This document shows, piece after piece, positions 18,419 through 50,004 of a DNA stretch of 64,000 bases (position 1 is its first letter; each line of letters starts with the position of its first letter). The stretch spans positions 248,001 to 312,000 of the forward strand of contig JAXHNP010000007.1 of the NCBI GenBank assembly GCA_034520365.1. Direction: 5' to 3'. A program made the translations under genes and the position numbers. The notes below the pieces were generated by a model. The model saw only the letters and a program-made list of their open reading frames with translations, made no database searches and was not told the DNA's origin. This DNA comes from Desulfobacterales bacterium (lineage in GTDB: Bacteria; Desulfobacterota; Desulfobacteria; Desulfobacterales; Desulfosalsimonadaceae).

Positions 18419-18965
18419 CACGGCTAATTTGTTCTGTATCCAAATCGAAATCGCTATCGGGATCGGGATCGAAAAAAATATGACCCTTGGACACGAAAAA
18501 CTGGACGTCTATCGCTTTTCAATAGGCTACGTTGCATGGGTTTACGAGAAGGCCGACAGCCTGAACGAAGTCCATCGGCCCGCCCGGGATCAATGGCTTC
18601 GGGCCAGCCAGTCGATACCGCTCAATATCGCCGAAGGTAATGGCAAGACCGCGGAAGCCGACCGAAGGCGTTATTTCGAAATCGCTCGTAGCTCCGCGCT
18701 TGTATGCGCGGCGATTCAAGATGTGCTGGTTGTCGGCAAGGCGCTGGACAAGATGGAAAGCCGGAACCGCAAGGATGAACTCGACCGTATGGCCGCGATG
18801 CTCAGCCGTCTCGGCGGAAGAGGATACCAAGTTCGAGAGGATCAGGAAGTCTACAGCATCGATTTCGATCCCGATTTCGATCCCGATAGCGAAGAAAACG
18901 AATCCCAACCTTAGCTTTAACAGGACCGGGGGTATGGATTTTGCGGTTAGAACAAATTAGCCGTG
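18419..18965. mobile_element. Element A: transposon-like unit encoding a four-helix-bundle (IVS-type) protein
   Basis: 547 bp with perfect 17-bp terminal inverted repeats, CACGGCTAATTTGTTCT (18419-18435) and its complement at 18949-18965. The flanking 10-mers GGCCGGTCTT (18409-18418) and GGCCGTTCCC (18966-18975) agree at 7 of 10 positions, consistent with a decayed target duplication. Inside the ends, a second inverted pair (TCGCTATCGGGATCG at 18451-18465, complement at 18878-18892) would let a transcript fold end to end. The only gene is the 144-residue protein at 18480-18914. Elements at 33069-34144 and 48142-48293 share the ends. No transposase is encoded. Confidence 0.82.
18480..18914 (+). 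CDS. Four-helix-bundle protein, 23S rRNA intervening-sequence (IVS) family, copy A
   Basis: 144 residues from the ATG at 18480. It shows the IVS/S23-family hallmark: a helix with QWLRASQSIPLNIAEG, then RRRYFEIARSSA and further amphipathic helices, predicted to fold as a four-helix bundle related to Avd proteins. The C-terminus is an acidic DFDPDFDPDSEENE tail encoded by a 6-bp-periodic repeat. No Shine-Dalgarno is present: the start is preceded by an A-run at the base of the inverted repeats, and an upstream TTG frame through the repeat is also open. It is almost identical to copies B and C. Family members may bind nucleic acid; the function is unproven. Confidence 0.88.
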   Translation: MTLGHEKLDVYRFSIGYVAWVYEKADSLNEVHRPARDQWLRASQSIPLNIAEGNGKTAEADRRRYFEIARSSALVCAAIQDVLVVGKALDKMESRNRKDELDRMAAMLSRLGGRGYQVREDQEVYSIDFDPDFDPDSEENESQP

Positions 18966-32939: not shown

Positions 32940-33129
32940 GGCGTCGTTCCTTTTAACAGTGGTTGGTATGGAAGGCGCTATGATACGCCCCTGTTCGGGT
33001 TAAACCGAGGCGATTATTTCAGAATCTTTATCCGGATGCAAGTATGATGTTGGGGATCCTTCGGCTGCCACGGCTAATTTGTTCTGTATCCAAATCGAAA
33101 TCGCTATCGGGATCGGGATCGAAAAAAAT

Positions 33130-33582
33130 ATGACCCTTGAACACGAAAAACTGGACGTCTATCGCCTTTCAATAGGCTACGTTGCATGGGTTTACGAGAA
33201 GGCCGACAGCCTGAACGGAGTCCATCGGCCCGCCCGGGATCAATGGCTTCGGGCCAGCCAGTCGATACCGCTCAATATCGCCGAAGGTAATGGCAAGACC
33301 GCGGAAGCCGACCGAAGGCGTTATTTCGAAATCGCTCGTGGCTCCGCGCTTGAGTGCGCGGCGATTCAAGATGTGCTGGTTGTCGGCAAGGCGCTGGACA
33401 AGATGGAAAGCCGGAACCGCAAGGATGAACTCGACCGTATGGCCGCGATGCTCAGCCGTCTCGGCGGAAGAGGATACCAAGTTCGAGAGGATCAGGAAGT
33501 CTACAGCATCGATTTCGATCCCGATAGCGATTTCGATCCCGATTTCGATCCCGATAGCGAAGAAAACGAATCCCAACCTTAG
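33130..33582 (+). CDS. Four-helix-bundle protein, IVS family, copy B
   Basis: 150 residues. It differs from copy A at a handful of positions (for example RLSIG for RFSIG, RGSALECA for RSSALVCA; the B/C form is closer to the family consensus GSALE). The acidic C-terminal tail is six residues longer (DFDPDSDFDPDFDPDSEENE). The ATG lies just inside the inverted repeats and has no Shine-Dalgarno. It is the first gene of the tandem pair in element B. Confidence 0.88.
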   Translation: MTLEHEKLDVYRLSIGYVAWVYEKADSLNGVHRPARDQWLRASQSIPLNIAEGNGKTAEADRRRYFEIARGSALECAAIQDVLVVGKALDKMESRNRKDELDRMAAMLSRLGGRGYQVREDQEVYSIDFDPDSDFDPDFDPDSEENESQP

Positions 33583-33658
33583 CTTTAACAGGACCGGGGG
33601 TATGGATTTGTTCTGTATCCAAATCGAAATCGCTATCGGGATCGGGATCGAAAAAAAT

Positions 33659-34093
33659 ATGAACCTTGGACGCGAAAAACTGGACGTCTATCGCCTTTCA
33701 ATAGGCTACGTTGCATGGGTTTACGAGAAGGCCGACAGCCTGAACGGAGTCCATCGGCCCGCCCGGGATCAATGGCTTCGGGCCAGCCAGTCGATACCGC
33801 TCAATATCGCCGAAGGTAATGGCAAGACCGCGGAAGCCGACCGAAGGCGTTATTTCGAAATCGCTCGTGGCTCCGCGCTTGAGTGTGCGGCGATTCAAGA
33901 TGTGCTGGTTGTCGGCAAGGCGCTGGACAAGATGGAAAGCCGGAACCGCAAGGATGAACTCGACCGTATGGCCGCGATGCTCAGCCGTCTCGGCGGAAGA
34001 GGATACCAAGTTCGAAAGGATCAGGAAGTCTACAGCATCGATTTCGATCCCGATAGCGATTTCGATCCCGAGGAAAACGAATCCCAACCTTAG
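33659..34093 (+). CDS. Four-helix-bundle protein, IVS family, copy C
   Basis: 144 residues from the ATG at 33659. An in-frame ATG at 33602, created at the duplication junction, would add 19 residues read through the repeat. It is almost identical to copy B; N-terminal changes give MNLGREKL, and VRKDQEV replaces VREDQEV. The tail is shortened to DFDPDSDFDPEENE. The longer frame running in from 33290 is a shifted reading of copy B and should not be taken as a fusion protein. Confidence 0.86.
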   Translation: MNLGREKLDVYRLSIGYVAWVYEKADSLNGVHRPARDQWLRASQSIPLNIAEGNGKTAEADRRRYFEIARGSALECAAIQDVLVVGKALDKMESRNRKDELDRMAAMLSRLGGRGYQVRKDQEVYSIDFDPDSDFDPEENESQP

Positions 34094-34229
34094 CGTTAAC
34101 AGGACCGGGGGTATGGATTTTGCGGTTAGAACAAATTAGCCGTGCTTCGGCTGCATTTCATTTTGACATTTCCGGATGTTTGCATATATCTTTAACGATT
34201 TACAAAATACCAAAAAGGCTTGTCGCGTT

Positions 34230-43164: not shown

Positions 43165-44020
43165 GCCCATACTGCCGCGAAAGCCCCCAATAATAATCCG
43201 CTTCCCCGTTTTTCCCGCGCTTTCGGCAGCCGGCCGCATAAATCTCACACTTTTCTTTTAATGCCCGAACCGCCGCGCTGTATTTTTCATCGGTCAGCAA
43301 GCGGCCGGCCAGGATTTTTTCAATTGCAAAAATCCGGTACTTGTCCAGACCCGGCTGGCGGGATAATTGATCGGCATGCCCGCCCTGTTTAACAATCAGC
43401 GGTTTTTCAATCAAATGGACCGGGTATTGAGAGCTTACCCGCAGCCACAGGTCATAGTCCTCGCAGGCGGGCAGGTTTTCATCAAATCCGCCGATTTCAA
43501 CAAACAGCGCCTTTTTGGCCATCACGGCAGACGGACTGACCAGGCACAGTTCAAGGGAGGGGATAAAAATATCACCGGCAGGCTTTTGATGCCGCCGGCG
43601 GGGGTTAACCCGGCGGCCGTTTCGGATCCAGACCTCTTCGGTCTGGCAGATCAGGGCATCGGGATGGGCATTAAAAAAGGCGACCTGCTCGGAAAGCTTT
43701 CCCGGCAGCCAGTAATCATCGGAATCCAGAAATGCGATCAGGTCGCCGGAGGCCGCGGCGATGCCGCGGTTTCTGGCGGCGCTCACCCCCTGATTGGGTT
43801 GATGGATATAAACGATCCAAGACTGATAGGCTGAAAGCAGGCTCCGGGTTTGATCTATGCTGCCGTCATCGACCACAATGAGTTCAAAATTCGGGTAATC
43901 CTGGAAAAGCACCGAATCAATAGCCTTGCCCACCGCCCAGGCCCGGTTGAACGTGGGGATGATCACACTCACCTGCGGCGTTGACTCGGCCGTCAATGCA
44001 TTTTCCGGGCTGTGACTCAT
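43154..44020 (-). CDS. Family 2 glycosyltransferase
   Basis: 288 residues with a GT-A fold. It has VSVIIPTFNRA at the start, LIVVDDGS, AARNRGI and the metal-binding LIAFLDSDDYW (DxD-like). No membrane helix, so it is a soluble or peripheral enzyme transferring a sugar from a nucleotide donor. Its start overlaps the end of hrpA by 4 bp (ATGA), so it is translationally coupled to that gene, an odd functional pairing. Confidence 0.9.
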   Translation of the reverse strand: MSHSPENALTAESTPQVSVIIPTFNRAWAVGKAIDSVLFQDYPNFELIVVDDGSIDQTRSLLSAYQSWIVYIHQPNQGVSAARNRGIAAASGDLIAFLDSDDYWLPGKLSEQVAFFNAHPDALICQTEEVWIRNGRRVNPRRRHQKPAGDIFIPSLELCLVSPSAVMAKKALFVEIGGFDENLPACEDYDLWLRVSSQYPVHLIEKPLIVKQGGHADQLSRQPGLDKYRIFAIEKILAGRLLTDEKYSAAVRALKEKCEIYAAGCRKRGKNGEADYYWGLSRQYGPMN

Positions 44021-47000
44021 ATCATCCGCCGGATGTGATCCGCATGCTGCTTAAGTTTCCTGGCGGATACGGGATACGCGGTTTTAAGCTCCTGGGCAAA
44101 GAGCGAGACCTTGAATTCCTCGATCATCCAGAAAAATTCTTCCACCGCATCCCGCTTCTCCTGGGAGGTACTCGCCTCGATTTCGTTTAAAAACGCTGCC
44201 AACTGGTCATTGAAAGGCTTGACCTGTTCGGCCTTTTTCTGGTCCTTGTCAAGATCCATCACCCCGCGCTCGGCCCGAAAGGACAGGGCTTTAAGGTATC
44301 TGGAGAGGTGTCCCAGACGCTCGAGGGTATAGATGTCCATAAAATGCTCCGGCACCAGACGGCTTAGCGAGCGCCGCAGCTCGGAGAGAAAGGCCGTGAC
44401 CAGCGGTCTGTCAGCATGCCCGGATTCCAGCTTATAGATGAGGGACCGGGTCTGCGCATAGGCCTCGATGACGGCGAGCCCCTTCTCCATTAGCGCCCGG
44501 CCGGCAGGCAGCAGGTTTTCCGACTGGGTACTGGCATGGCTGTAGAATTGCTCCGCTGTGCGGATATTTGCCGCAAACAATTCATTTATCACCCGATCCA
44601 TTATCCGGGCCTCAAGTTTCTGCCGGCCGCCGAAATACATGGCTGCCGGCTCCACCGATGACGGCAGGGCCACGGTCTTTTTCAAAAATTTTATGTCCTT
44701 TGCCAAATAGCGGCGGTAAAGCCGGGCGACCCCGGTTTTATGGGCGCGAAGGGCCGCCTCCGGGTCCTCGAAAAGCCGAAGATCCACGGTATCCCCGTTT
44801 TGGACAAGCGCGGGATACACGTGAAAGCCGCCTTGCCCGCGCCCTTGAACCGCAATGGCATCCGGGAGATCCGGAACCTCCCAGGTGGTCATCCCGGATT
44901 TTTCCCACTTTTTTCTTTCCGCGGCCAACCCGTTCGCATCCGTTTTCTCAGGCGCCTGGGTCAGAAGTGCCTGTTTATCCCGGCTGCCGGCGACCTCTTT
45001 TCCGTTTGAATCGGTAATGGCAAAACGCAGGCGCAGATGATCCGGCAGATCCGCCTCCCGCCATTCGGACACCGGGATATCCACCCCGAACCGATGATAG
45101 ATGAACCGGCTCAATTCACTGCGCAAGGAGCCCTGATACATGGGCATCTCTTTCATGATGCAGCGGAGGGTATCATTTATAGGCACTAGCTGTTTGCGAC
45201 AGGATTTCGGGAGCCCCCGGAGCAGGGCGTTGATCTTTTCCTCAAGCAGGCCGGGCACGATCCAGTCCGTAGGTTCCCGGGATATGGCGGAAACCCCGGA
45301 GGCGGGCACCTTGACGGTTACGCCGTCAGCCGGCGCGCCGGGATCAAACCGGTACGCGCACGCATACCTGGATTCGACAAGCTTAAGGGAATCCGGAAAA
45401 AGGGAAAGCTGGTCGTCTTCCGGATGGTAAGTCAACAGATCTTTCTGATCCATTCTCAGGAAATGATCGGACCCCATCTTCTTGATGCGTTTTTTAAGCG
45501 TGGCCATATCATAGATATTCTCCAGCCGCTCGCGGTAGAATTCAAGCATGGCCGCTTCCGCGACCAAAAGATCCCGGCGGCGGAGCCGGTTCTCCATCTC
45601 CCGGATGGATTCGATCTGCTCGCGGTTATGCTGCATAAAGGGGAGTTCTTTTTTCACCCGGCCTTCGATCAGCGCCTCCCGGATAAAAATCTCGGTGGCC
45701 CCTTCCGGATCTACCGGCCCGTATCGTTTAGGCCGGCCCGGTTCAATGATCAGCCCGAAGAGACTCACCTGCTCATCGGCCATCACCGCCTCCTGCTTTT
45801 TCTCCCATCTGGGATTCAGATAGGTATACCGGCAAAGGGAGGCGCCGATGGGCTCAAGCCACGTGCGGTCGATATTGGCCACATTGCGGCCGAAAAGCCG
45901 GGAGGTCTCAACCATTTCCGCGCACACGATCCAGGCCCCGCCCCGGTTAAACACTCCGGAGCCCGGAAAAATCATCATTTCCCGGTTTTTGGCCGCCTGA
46001 TAGACATTTTTTTCCTTTTTCACCGCAATGTTTGACAAAAATCCGCTTAGAATCGATTTATGGATGGCCGCATACCCTTGGGAAAAGTCTTCATCCCCGG
46101 ATTCATTTTTTTTACCAGGCGCCGGCTGACTCGGCTTGACCCCGGCCTCGTTTAGAATCGCGGTGATCTGCTCGTGCACATCCTGCCATTCCCGCATGCG
46201 CTTAAAGGAGAAAAAATTCGACCGGCAGAACTCCTTAAGATCCCTTGCCCGGACAAAGGCCCGTGTCATGGCCGGCGTCCCAAAACAGGCCCGCCAGATA
46301 TTGATCCAGGTGATAAAGTCCGAGGCCGGGTCCTTAAACTGGTTGTGGGCCGCCTCTGCGGTTTTTTCGGCATCCTCCGGCCGCTCCCGGGGGTCAATGG
46401 TGCTAAGCGCTGACACAATCACCACCAGCTCTTCAAGGTGGCCCTGATCCGCGGCTTCGAGAAGCATTCGCGACAGCCTGGGATCAAGCGGAACAGCGGC
46501 CATTACACGGCCCCTGGCGCTCAGGCGGGGGGTTTTTTTCTTTGCGGGCTTTTCCTTTTTCCGGGCTGCCGCCGGGACCAGGGCCCCCAGTTCGTGGAGC
46601 AGATCAAAACCGTCCTTAACCTGCTTTGCGGGCGGGGGATCAATAAAGGGGAAAGACTGAATATCCCCCAGGTTTAAGGAAATCATCCGGAGGATCACCT
46701 GGGACAAATTGGCGCGCTGGATTTCCGGCGGGGTGAAAAGCGGCCGGGACTCATAGTCAGACTCGGGGTATAGCCGTATGCAGACGCCGTCCGCCACCCG
46801 GCCGCACCGGCCCTTGCGCTGGTCGGCGCTGCTTTTTGAGATCGGCGCAATCGGCAGTGACGTGGTTCTGGAGCGGGGGTCATACTGGGAAATCCGGGCC
46901 AGGCCCGTATCAATCACGTATCGGATGCCCGGCACCGTAATGGAGGTTTCGGCCACATTGGTGGCCACCACGATCTTTCTGCCCGGGATGGATTTAAACA

Positions 47001-48027
47001 CCCGCATCTGATCGGCCGCAGGGAGCCGCGCAAAAAGCGGGAGCACCGTGGTATGCCGGTAGTTCCGGCCCTCAAGGGTTTCACAGGTCTCCCGGATATC
47101 CTGTTCCGTGGGCATAAAAATCAGAATATCGCCCGGTTTTTTTTCAGAGATCACTGCATCCGCCGCGTCCACCGCCTTTTCCACGTAGGTAAGTTCCTCT
47201 GCATCGCCGTCGGTATCGGATTCCGCATACTGAACTGTCACCGGATACGTCCGGCCGGAGACCTCGATTACCGGGGCATCCCCAAAGGCTTTTGAAAACT
47301 TTTGCGTATCAATGGTGGCGGAGGTGATAATGAGCTTCAGATCCTTGCGGATGCTTGTGAGGTTTCTCAGGATCCCCAGCAGAAAATCGATGTTTAAGCT
47401 GCGCTCATGGGCCTCATCCACGATAATCGTGTCATAGGCATTCAAATACTTGTCCCCCTGGGTCTCGGCCAGAAGGATGCCATCGGTCATAATCTTGATG
47501 AAGCCGTCCGCCTTGTTGAACTGCTCCTGAAACCGAATCTGATAGCCCACGGATTCACCGGGCGACTCCCCCAGTTCCTCGGCGATCCGGTCGGCCACTG
47601 TGACCGCGGCGATCCGCCGGGGCTGGGTGCAGCCGACAATTCCCTCGATCCCGCGGCCCGCCGCCAGGCAGAACTTGGGCAGCTGCGTGGTCTTGCCGGA
47701 GCCGGTCTCACCGGAAACAATCACCACCGGATGATTCCGGATGGCGGCGATAATATCATCCTTTTTGCGGGTGATCGGCAGATTTTCCGGATATTCGGGC
47801 TTTGGCCGAATCTTTTTCCGTTTTTCCTTATGCGCGATCGACCGCGTGAGACGCTCCTTCAGCTGATCCAGCTCATGCCGGGTTTTCTTTGCCGACCCGT
47901 CACCGTTTTTCCGGCGCTTGATCTTTTTAAGCTCACGGAGCGCCGCATGCCGGTCCGCGTGCATGACATCCGGCAGCAGGCTTTCCAGGGATTTTATTTT
48001 TTGATATAAATCAGATGATCTGGACAT
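44017..48027 (-). CDS. hrpA: ATP-dependent RNA helicase HrpA
   Basis: 1,336 residues, close to E. coli HrpA. It has the DEAH-box helicase core with GETGSGKTTQLPKF (motif I), DEAHERSLNIDF (motif II), SATIDTQKF (III) and QRKGRCGRVADGVCIRLY (VI). The winged-helix/HA2/OB regions and the long C-terminal DUF3418-type extension of the HrpA family follow. It is implicated in mRNA processing and rescue of stalled ribosomes. The gene is upstream of, and coupled to, the glycosyltransferase gene. Confidence 0.96.
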   Translation of the reverse strand: MSRSSDLYQKIKSLESLLPDVMHADRHAALRELKKIKRRKNGDGSAKKTRHELDQLKERLTRSIAHKEKRKKIRPKPEYPENLPITRKKDDIIAAIRNHPVVIVSGETGSGKTTQLPKFCLAAGRGIEGIVGCTQPRRIAAVTVADRIAEELGESPGESVGYQIRFQEQFNKADGFIKIMTDGILLAETQGDKYLNAYDTIIVDEAHERSLNIDFLLGILRNLTSIRKDLKLIITSATIDTQKFSKAFGDAPVIEVSGRTYPVTVQYAESDTDGDAEELTYVEKAVDAADAVISEKKPGDILIFMPTEQDIRETCETLEGRNYRHTTVLPLFARLPAADQMRVFKSIPGRKIVVATNVAETSITVPGIRYVIDTGLARISQYDPRSRTTSLPIAPISKSSADQRKGRCGRVADGVCIRLYPESDYESRPLFTPPEIQRANLSQVILRMISLNLGDIQSFPFIDPPPAKQVKDGFDLLHELGALVPAAARKKEKPAKKKTPRLSARGRVMAAVPLDPRLSRMLLEAADQGHLEELVVIVSALSTIDPRERPEDAEKTAEAAHNQFKDPASDFITWINIWRACFGTPAMTRAFVRARDLKEFCRSNFFSFKRMREWQDVHEQITAILNEAGVKPSQPAPGKKNESGDEDFSQGYAAIHKSILSGFLSNIAVKKEKNVYQAAKNREMMIFPGSGVFNRGGAWIVCAEMVETSRLFGRNVANIDRTWLEPIGASLCRYTYLNPRWEKKQEAVMADEQVSLFGLIIEPGRPKRYGPVDPEGATEIFIREALIEGRVKKELPFMQHNREQIESIREMENRLRRRDLLVAEAAMLEFYRERLENIYDMATLKKRIKKMGSDHFLRMDQKDLLTYHPEDDQLSLFPDSLKLVESRYACAYRFDPGAPADGVTVKVPASGVSAISREPTDWIVPGLLEEKINALLRGLPKSCRKQLVPINDTLRCIMKEMPMYQGSLRSELSRFIYHRFGVDIPVSEWREADLPDHLRLRFAITDSNGKEVAGSRDKQALLTQAPEKTDANGLAAERKKWEKSGMTTWEVPDLPDAIAVQGRGQGGFHVYPALVQNGDTVDLRLFEDPEAALRAHKTGVARLYRRYLAKDIKFLKKTVALPSSVEPAAMYFGGRQKLEARIMDRVINELFAANIRTAEQFYSHASTQSENLLPAGRALMEKGLAVIEAYAQTRSLIYKLESGHADRPLVTAFLSELRRSLSRLVPEHFMDIYTLERLGHLSRYLKALSFRAERGVMDLDKDQKKAEQVKPFNDQLAAFLNEIEASTSQEKRDAVEEFFWMIEEFKVSLFAQELKTAYPVSARKLKQHADHIRRMI

Positions 48028-48141
48028 GCTTCGGTCATTGTCAATGTTTTTAAAAATTACAGAACCCCTGCGGGCTCAAATTGGGCATACAATAAACAGT
48101 ACGTTCCGATTTTTCAATATCTTCCACATCCTTTCCCGGGA

Positions 48142-48293
48142 CACGGTAAATTTGTTCTATCTATTTTTCAGGCGGGCACGGTGGCCTGCCCTTCGCGACA
48201 ATGCCGATATTTTGTAGGGTCGGCCACCGTGCCGACCTTGCATGCGAGAAACCCCATGGTTATGGGGTTTCTCGCCAAAACAAATTCACCGTG
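48142..48293. mobile_element. Element M: 152-bp non-coding unit with related ends and a 10-bp target duplication
   Basis: The left end CACGGTAAATTTGTTCT (48142-48158) matches the element A/B end at 15 of 17 bases; the right end (48277-48293) matches at 14 of 17. The adjoining 10-mers TTTCCCGGGA (48132-48141) and TTTCCCGGAA (48294-48303) agree at 9 of 10. Inside are GGCACGGTGGCC (48175-48186) with its complement at 48222-48233, and a perfect 14-bp stem with a 4-nt loop at 48244-48275. It lies in the 399-bp gap between hrpA and the histidine kinase gene; I see nothing else definite in that gap. It has no ORF and reads as a MITE-like relative of the coding elements. Confidence 0.72.
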
Positions 48294-48426
48294 TTTCCCG
48301 GAATAAAGGCTTTGACATCCCGGCTTGAAGTGATATAAAAAATTGATCGCAAATGAGAACATGTTTTATCGGGATAAATCCGATAAACCCGAATAAATTG
48401 AAAGGCTAAAAACGGGTCAGTGTTTT

Positions 48427-50004
48427 ATGCAAACGTCCCAGCCCCCTCAAAACCTGCCAACCGGATTACACCGGCTGCGTAAAGATCAGCTCCGGTATAT
48501 ACTGGATAATATTTCCGATTACGTATGCCTCCATGACCTGCAGGGAAAAATCCTGGGGGTTAACCGGACAATGCAGAATCATGCCGGTATAACCGATCCC
48601 CGGCAGCTGGTGGGCCAGCCGATTACCCTGTTCATGCCGGAACAATATCAGGCCCTGTTCGACGACTACATGGCCCGCCTGCTTAAAAAGGGGGCCAACT
48701 CCGGGCTGGTCAGCCTGATCACCCAAACCGGGGAGGAACGGGTGATCGAGTACAACAGCCTGCTGATCTACGATGATGAGGGCCGGCCCCTGGCGGTGGC
48801 CAGTCTGGGCCGGGATATCACCGAACGGCTGAGATCCGAGAAAGCCTTAAAAAAAAGCGAGGAAAAATACCGCAACATCCTGGAAACCATTGAGGACGGC
48901 TATTATGAGGCCGACCTTAGCGGCAGCATCAAATTCTGCAACCCCGCGCTCTGCCGGATACTCGGATATAGCGAATCCGAACTGCTGGAAAAGAACTATC
49001 GGGAGATTTGTGAGCCGCCCTATATCAATACCATTTATAACACCTTCAACAAGGTCTATCACAGCCGGGAATCCACCAAGGCATTTGACTGGCGGCTGAT
49101 CCGAAAAGACGGTTCAGCATGCTTTGTGGAAACCTCGGTTTCCCTGATAGAAGCCGACGACAAGCGGATTGCCGGTTTTCGGGGGATCTGCCGGGATGTC
49201 ACGGATCGCATCGAGGCGGAAAAGGAGCGGCAGAGTTTGGAGAACCAGCTTTTCTACAGCCAGAAAATGGAGGCCCTTGGCACCCTGGCCGGCGGATTTG
49301 CCCATAACTTCAACAACATCTTATTCCCGTTAATCGGCTATATTGACATGGCCCTGATGCAAGCCCCGGCGGACAGCCGAACGCGCCAGCACATGGAAAA
49401 GGCGCTGGAATCCGCCAACAAGGCAAAAAATATCGTCCATCGGGTGCAGGAATATACCCGCAATGACAAGGGGCATCAGATCCAGCCGCTTGATGTGCCG
49501 GAAGTTGTGGACCAGGCCCTCCGGCTGGTTCGGGGCTCGCTTTCCAGCCGGATCAAGCTGTCAACGGAATTTGACGAGACCTGCCCGCAGATTATGGCGG
49601 ATGCGGGCCAGATCCAGCATGTAATCGTCAACCTTTGCGCCAATGCCAATGATGCGATCATGTCAAACGGTCGCTCCGGCCATATCACAGTTGCGGTTTC
49701 GTCCGCGAACATCGCATCCGCCGATTCAGGTAAAGCCAAGGCACTGCCCCAGGGACGCTATGCCTGTATTTCGGTCACAGATTCCGGATGCGGAATCGAT
49801 TCGGGGATGGTGGACCGGGTGTTTGACCCGTTTTACACCACCAAACCGGAAACCGGAAAAGGCTTAGGCCTCTCCCTCTCCCACCGGATTGTCAAGAAAT
49901 ACGGCGGCGAGATATTTATTGAGAGCCAGGTCGGCGAAGGCACCGCTGTTCACGTATACATTCCCGAAATGACGGCGGACGCTCAACCTGATGAGAACCA
50001 GTAA
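48427..50004 (+). CDS. PAS-PAS sensor histidine kinase
   Basis: 525 residues, soluble (no membrane helices). Two PAS domains (about 20-135 and 145-265) precede a HisKA-type dimerisation domain with phospho-acceptor His293 in GGFAHNFNNIL. The HATPase domain has NLCANANDAI (N box), DSGCGID and GKGLGLSLSHRI. There is no receiver domain. The HD-GYP regulator gene begins 72 bp downstream and is the obvious partner. The signal is unknown; cytosolic redox or ligand sensing through PAS is likely. Confidence 0.92.
   Translation: MQTSQPPQNLPTGLHRLRKDQLRYILDNISDYVCLHDLQGKILGVNRTMQNHAGITDPRQLVGQPITLFMPEQYQALFDDYMARLLKKGANSGLVSLITQTGEERVIEYNSLLIYDDEGRPLAVASLGRDITERLRSEKALKKSEEKYRNILETIEDGYYEADLSGSIKFCNPALCRILGYSESELLEKNYREICEPPYINTIYNTFNKVYHSRESTKAFDWRLIRKDGSACFVETSVSLIEADDKRIAGFRGICRDVTDRIEAEKERQSLENQLFYSQKMEALGTLAGGFAHNFNNILFPLIGYIDMALMQAPADSRTRQHMEKALESANKAKNIVHRVQEYTRNDKGHQIQPLDVPEVVDQALRLVRGSLSSRIKLSTEFDETCPQIMADAGQIQHVIVNLCANANDAIMSNGRSGHITVAVSSANIASADSGKAKALPQGRYACISVTDSGCGIDSGMVDRVFDPFYTTKPETGKGLGLSLSHRIVKKYGGEIFIESQVGEGTAVHVYIPEMTADAQPDENQ

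Follow-up and report, generated by a model that had tools for sequence, protein, structure and literature searches.

The window, i.e., the whole stretch of 64,000 nucleotides of a Desulfobacterales genome that was analysed, contains a short non-coding element, which lies in an intergenic gap flanked by divergent genes. The two genes, the element and its parts are the following:

44017–48027, minus strand: DUF3418 helicase gene, on one side of the gap
48132–48141, no strand: left copy of the target-site duplication, TTTCCCGGGA, 9/10 identical to the right copy
48142–48293, plus strand: type-A MITE, non-coding, 152 bp, 95.4% identity to the family consensus
48142–48158, plus strand: left terminal inverted repeat, CACGGTAAATTTGTTCT (direct reading, end-pattern search)
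48172–48194, minus strand: left REP unit, with the tag GAAG in place of GTAG in the window copy
48214–48236, plus strand: right REP unit, GTAGGGTCGGCCACCGTGCCGAC, of a REP family that is also found around the RAYT gene in L362
48244–48275, plus strand: subterminal perfect hairpin, 14 bp, with arm variants in other copies
48277–48293, minus strand: right terminal inverted repeat, which reads CACGGTGAATTTGTTTT on this strand (direct reading, end-pattern search)
48294–48303, no strand: right copy of the target-site duplication, TTTCCCGGAA (direct reading)
48427–50004, plus strand: PAS histidine kinase gene, on the other side of the gap

A sequence-only reading had compared the ends of the element with those of gene-carrying elements in the window, and had reported matches at 15/17 and 14/17 bases, flanking 10-mers identical at 9/10 positions, a perfect 14-bp hairpin and a 12-bp inverted pair. 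Direct reading gave the same values. The left end CACGGTAAATTTGTTCT agrees with CACGGCTAATTTGTTCT of the coding elements at 15 of 17 bases, the right end AAAACAAATTCACCGTG with AGAACAAATTAGCCGTG at 14 of 17, and the hairpin arms (48244–48257 and 48262–48275) are 14 bp long and 100% complementary. The 12-bp inverted pair exists as well and forms the core of 23-nt arms (48170–48192 and 48216–48238, 83% complementary), but its identity as a REP doublet, described below, had been missed.

The single strand of the MITE folded much more stably than its shuffled versions (z −8.5, 0/200). A search of the MITE against Rfam revealed nothing credible, the best match having an E-value of 0.54 and 18.4 bits versus a gathering score of 100. 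A role as terminator or promoter was also considered and rejected: one terminator-like and two promoter-like sites were seen in the 601 bases scanned, all of them outside the element, and these numbers were near those of shuffles. The hairpin arm pairs GAGAAA/TTTCTC, GAACAA/TTGTTC and GAAAAA/TTTTTC were matched across copies. A conserved hairpin structure is not claimed on the basis of this covariation, as at least 5 of the 48 aligned rows were mismatched hybrids.

A genome-wide search with the element revealed at least 39 further near-full-length copies in its own genome, which were 90–97% identical (40 of 254 candidates were scored, the window's own copy among the 40). The query began 10 bases ahead of the element, and its bases 11 and 162 correspond to the borders given in the sequence-only reading. 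The alignments started at base 11 in 29 of the 39 copies (remaining starts at 4–18) and ended at base 162 in 26 (remaining ends at 160–167). Copies with different borders, which that reading had named as a sign of coincidental end similarity, did not appear; the copies share their borders and mostly duplicate 10 bp. A search for the element on plasmids and in phages gave no match. In the alignment of type-A copies, 39 of 48 rows were 92.8–99.3% identical to the consensus (95.4% for the window copy), and the remaining rows were longer, deleted or, in one case (L120), composite.

The end pattern CACGGNNAATTTGTT was found with at most one mismatch at 306 sites in the genome, versus 6 sites for the reversed control, and 187 of the 306 sites were located individually. 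End pairs were called when the ends were 90–1300 bp apart and had at most 4 mismatches over both ends together; they were drawn from the search loci and targeted stretches, and the window lay outside the scanned loci. Altogether, 125 non-redundant pairs were called. An exact 10-bp duplication was present at 59 of them and a match of at least 9/10 at 80, while only 2 of 15,750 mismatched left/right flank pairs, which served as control, reached 9/10. Exact duplications of 9 or 11 bp were seen at 8 further pairs, and L321 has a duplication of 12/12, which is outside the reach of the test for 9–11 bases. This test was failed by 27 of the 125 pairs, of which 12 represent a different composite repeat (string filter) and several of the other 15 have composite or accidental partners. 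The 80 duplications revealed no target-sequence preference (at most 0.04 bits per position). Chance similarity of the ends was ruled out by the copies, the excess of the end pattern and the duplications.

The flanks were at least 80% alike in 98 of the 125 pairs. These comprise 46 elements of type A, the window's kind, 18 of type B, 33 with a PF05635 gene and one other, and, thus, gene-less elements are the larger part (64/98). The type-A elements are short, non-coding and multi-copy, and have terminal inverted repeats as well as target duplications. In these features, including the length of 152 bp and the dozens of copies, the family resembles bacterial MITEs; unlike in these, an internal REP doublet is present in 61 of the 64 short copies.

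Uninterrupted sites were searched for in all loci retrieved for this analysis, by means of queries in which the two flanks of an element are linked through a single copy of its duplication; 99 element rows (98 elements, L324 being present twice) were covered. The gene-carrying element of L137 has an uninterrupted paralogue in L105 (106/109 across the junction), and the type-B element of L123 has one in L124 (61/68). In addition, an uninterrupted site was found in L101 for the gene-carrying element of L079, which is nested in a type-A-like copy (57/60). The retrieved DNA yielded no empty site, neither orthologous nor paralogous, for any type-A copy, that of the window included.

The internal inverted pair consists of two GTAG-tagged REP units: it forms a GTAG-tagged inverted doublet, and its family adjoins a RAYT gene. 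With up to one mismatch allowed, the REP pattern GTAGGGYSGGCCACCGTGCCSRCC has 334 matches in the genome, versus 0 for the reversed pattern. Eight places of this REP family surround the Y1 (RAYT) gene of L362, an arrangement called REPtron in the matched passages of PMC3733652. Exactly two REP units are present in 61 of the 64 short elements and none in the 33 gene-carrying elements. The spacer between the units varies among the type-A copies, and some of these have extra units. According to excerpts of PMC3116915, an inverted REP doublet has been proposed as the replicative unit. The GTAG palindromes, the inverted doublets and the units around a RAYT gene are shared with the GTAG-type REP/REPIN systems in the matched parts of PMC3733652 and PMC3116915, whereas the doublet is here nested in a DDE-type MITE and amplified along with it.

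Several further observations were made on the repeats of this genome. Two RAYT-like genes, in L362 (Y1 gene, C6:804458) and in L363, each lie near their own family of GTAG-type palindromic repeats. On contig C5 of G000, nine REP units are present within about 25 kb (61–86 kb), and none of the 187 located MITE ends is on C5. A composite repeat (L026, L028, L032 and others) consists of AACTTTAAAGGCACTGAGG, the MITE left arm, the REP pair, short CCTAATACC repeats and GTGAAGTTACTTAGAAG. It is a different high-copy inverted-repeat family that has apparently captured the MITE arm. An interpretation of 55 unpaired ends as one-ended insertions was rejected: 28 of the 38 rows inspected share the left border of the composite repeat, and its right border was visible within 200 bases in 22 of these 28. 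The ends of the composite repeat were left out of the element counts.

The two gene-carrying elements of the window lie among reading frames:

18419–18965, plus strand: gene-carrying element with a PF05635 gene from ATG 18480 to stop 18914; ends 17/17 inverted, flanks 7/10
33069–34144, plus strand: gene-carrying element (identical with L060), inside duplicated in tandem, with genes at 33130–33582 and 33659–34093; target-site duplication CTTCGGCTGC, 10/10

The first of them, with its flanks of 7/10, is not part of the 98 elements, as the window was not scanned. Tandem-duplicated insides were seen in the second one as well as in L077 and L080, in each case with a length of 1076–1106 bp, one end pair and one target duplication. 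In the element at 18419–18965, the leader before the ATG (18428–18474) and the C-terminal tail of the gene, which is rich in repeats (18859–18897), are complementary at 74–90%. A transcript of this element could form a stem that has the gene in its loop, similar to rRNA intervening sequences.

The gene product is a PF05635/TIGR02436 protein, and the genome contains 45 PF05635 matches. Both ends were present within 2 mismatches at 25 of the 30 PF05635 loci L051–L080, and the remaining five have no end pair. Over 48 positions, the right arms of type B and of the gene-carrying element are alike at 44, and those of types A and B at 32. From these sequence comparisons, type A, type B and the gene-carrying form seem to be a single family in which the inner parts have been exchanged.

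Selection on the gene was analyzed with 39 aligned copies, of which the 37 ungapped ones were used. They were 98.4–100% identical to the consensus and contained 60 distinct changes, i.e., 41 amino-acid-changing, 18 silent and one stop. There was no sign of purifying selection among these 37 copies, the ratio of non-silent to silent changes being 1.01 of the expectation; this value is based on a small number of changes and refers to the copies, not to the source copy. This result is as expected of a passenger. Also because elements with the same ends carry the gene in place of the REP pair, it is most likely a passenger. The sequence-only reading had left the choice between a bundle protein that is cargo and one that acts in trans. 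The first is favoured, and a role in trans is disfavoured by the gene-less majority, by the copies showing no sign of selection, and by the situation in G013 and G034 and a transposase gene with the same end, both of which are described below.

The gene-carrying elements resemble mobile insertion cassettes (MICs), as presented in the matched passages of PMC3281130, in having IS-type ends and a passenger gene that replaces the transposase. They differ from the MICs named there in that the passenger is a PF05635 gene, a family named after 23S rRNA intervening sequences. In excerpts of PMC4990558, rRNA intervening sequences are cited as having been proposed in 1990 to be remnants of transposition, and the ORF of these sequences has been proposed, separately, as a component needed for mobility.

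Two transposase families, PF01609 and PF01797, were screened in the own genome. Eight PF01609 loci were found, two of which were below the cut-off. One of the eight, L143 (C8:156177–156923), is followed by AGAACAAATTAGCCGTG, which equals the right end of the coding elements in 17 of 17 bp. The next best end near a PF01609 locus had 3 mismatches (L142), versus 0 for L143. In the sequence-only reading, the coding elements had served as the reference. L143, one of two ISAs1-family loci found, lies outside of the window and is the probable mobiliser. L143 has a DruA-like domain (PF14236), DDE_Tnp_1_assoc (PF13808) and DDE_Tnp_1 (PF01609). Its DDE part scored 148.6 bits against NF033564 (ISAs1 family; cut-off 70), and the N-terminal part alone scored 42.9. 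In the DDE alignment of the L143 lineage the columns D45 and E174 are invariant, which we take to be two catalytic residues of the transposase. The transposase frame is split at CCCAAAAAAAGT (A7G) at the same place in all five members of the lineage that were compared, and this sequence is probably a −1 frameshift site. In L143, the right end is present, a left end was not found in the retrieved DNA, and a stop interrupts the DruA-like frame. Because of the missing left end and the stop, the L143 copy itself is probably immobile now; it could still supply transposase.

ISAs1 transposases with an upstream DruA-like domain and the A7G site were found in L143 (1447–2196), L149, L313, L314 and L315. 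The own genome also has another ISAs1 element, L310/L141, which is 1310 bp long and has the ends CAGGGTAACCGCATTTGG, which are inverted at 15 of 15 positions; in L310, the terminal inverted repeats begin with CAGGGTAA and an exact 10-bp duplication is present. Target duplications of the ISAs1 family are 8–10 bp long. With the exact 10-bp duplication of L310, ISAs1 chemistry in this host fits the duplications of the MITEs. The system shares with the ISAs1 family (H-repeat type) the DDE_Tnp_1_assoc and DDE_Tnp_1 domains, the match to NF033564, ends that start with CA(C/G)GG and, in the case of L310, the 10-bp duplication. In contrast to the family, the L143 lineage has an upstream DruA-like domain and a conserved A7G site, and the MITE has no transposase.

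Relatives of the L143 lineage are present in four other genomes, with DDE parts that are 55–60% identical. Mismatches of their ends were counted over 15 fixed bases and amounted to 1 and 0 for L149 and to 0 and 3 for L313. L315 has one end with 3 mismatches, and its other end lies at the contig terminus and matches exactly. For L314, 5 and 1 mismatches were counted, and the value of 5 equals the background level of unrelated loci, though the end is rightly placed. No duplication of 9–11 bp was found around L149 (5 bp at most), L313 or L314, and L315 ends with the contig. Elements of the lineage with both ends were seen in these other genomes only. ISAs1 loci of a Thiodictyon plasmid (L317), which were covered at the level of their reading frames, were 42% identical.

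The MITE itself was searched for in 60 relatives, the own genome included, and 12 of them had a match. In G013 and G034, two genomes that belong to the same family-level group but to a different genus, at least 14 matches each were found (14 scored of 94 and of 107 candidates, respectively), mostly full-length and with an identity of 73–78%. Nine distinct copies of these genomes were inspected: eight had an exact duplication of 9 or 10 bp, and REP pairs were visible. G001, which belongs to the same genus, contains one relative of 229 bp (L290) with an exact 9-bp duplication. The matches in the remaining relatives were confined to the REP region. In G013 and G034, no match to the L143 transposase was found at an E-value of 1e-3, and the 8 PF05635 loci found in these draft genomes all lack flanking MITE-type ends. 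Because gene-less copies are present in these genomes, in which the PF05635 loci do not have such ends, the gene is unneeded in cis.

The exact 17-mer of the coding-element end was found in 26 stretches of other genomes, which is about the chance level by our own estimate. A second end was present in L149, L164, L166, L171 and L151. Among these, L164 and L166 have exact 10-bp duplications and L171 has one of 8/9, while none was seen at L149 and L151. Among 112 stretches of viral contigs no convincing element was found. The Pseudomonadota MAG C17_metabat.bin.16_sub contains a 220-bp MITE with the same type of ends (L164, 1867–2086; L166, 1778–1997), and a third copy starts at L150 2898. It has a different inverted pair that begins with GTAG, which hints, from the sequences at hand, at a recurrent nesting of REPs in MITEs.

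Different agents could in principle have spread these elements. The four-helix-bundle protein of PF05635 could be the mobiliser or an essential helper, and the gene-less elements could be its MITEs. This would fit the 33 gene-carrying elements with duplications, which share ends and right arm, as well as the gene copies being more uniform than the type-A copies. Moreover, excerpts of PMC4990558 mention the proposal that the ORF of rRNA intervening sequences acts as a helper, and resident genes, such as those of the five loci without an end pair, could act in trans. However, the copies show no sign of purifying selection, gene-less copies are present in G013 and G034 without any PF05635 locus flanked by such ends, and a DDE transposase with an identical right end exists in L143. 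We know of no nuclease or transposase activity in the PF05635 family, and we regard this explanation as unlikely. A spread of the type-A element by a RAYT that moves the internal REP pair, with incidental outer ends, is less probable still. The outer ends are where the borders and the 10-bp duplications lie, and the 33 REP-less gene-carrying elements have the same ends and duplications, even though the REP doublets in nearly all short elements, the RAYT gene surrounded by the same REP family and the REP units outside of MITEs would agree with such a spread. We also know of no target duplication made by Y1 transposases.

The ends could, furthermore, belong to a transposase of another family in the genome, and the right end of L143 could be due to chance or be an acquired MITE end. 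The screen covered PF01609 and PF01797, about 120 of the 306 end sites are outside the 187 that were located, L143 has no left end, and no duplication surrounds the complete elements of its lineage, all of which leaves some room for another owner. Yet, the lineage is bounded by such ends in other genomes, on both sides in L149, L313 and L315 and clearly on one side in L314, and the ISAs1 element L310 of the same genome makes an exact 10-bp duplication. We regard another owner as improbable.

Taken together, the elements are, with good confidence, a MITE family that is probably moved by the ISAs1/DruA transposase lineage and that contains a nested REP doublet in its short forms and a PF05635 gene, most likely a passenger, in the gene-carrying form. 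An ISAs1-family DDE transposase with a DruA-like domain would probably be expressed through the A7G frameshift. It would probably recognise the ends of about 17 bp (CAC/GGGNNAATTTGTTCT) in trans, since the right end of L143 is identical and its relatives carry similar ends. The element would be excised or copied and then inserted without a clear sequence preference, and staggered cuts would lead to the duplications of 10 bp, rarely 9, 11 or 12 bp. We infer that the ISAs1 transposase does this work, and its source may be the present truncated locus or an intact one that has been lost. The REP doublet, of the kind mobilised by RAYT/Y1, would be one non-autonomous element within another. In the PF05635 elements, which have the same ends, the gene occupies the position of the REP pair, as in the organization of mobile insertion cassettes. 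The proposal of the sequence-only reading that the mobilising activity recognises the ends alone is, at the level of sequence, supported by the gene-less majority, the copies in G013 and G034 and the end of L143.

Neither an ISAs1-type MITE with a REP doublet nor a transposon-borne PF05635 gene was found among the best-ranked matches in the open-licence literature of PubMed Central. The interest of the family lies in its tie to the intervening-sequence gene and in the nesting of two mobile systems. Dozens of copies of an intervening-sequence-type gene are present in the frame of a DNA transposon and have clear duplications; gene-less elements that share their ends accompany them. The nested doublet also points to an ability of DDE-type MITEs to spread RAYT substrates. 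As a tentative wider idea, which is possible though on balance doubtful, the ISAs1/DruA lineage spreads MITEs as vehicles for RAYT-type REP doublets and S23/IVP gene cassettes, and the three together form a three-layer mobile consortium. If this is true, one short element would be the substrate for two unrelated transposase chemistries, and cassettes mobilised in trans would be a plausible source of the 23S rRNA intervening sequences, the origin of which is still unexplained.
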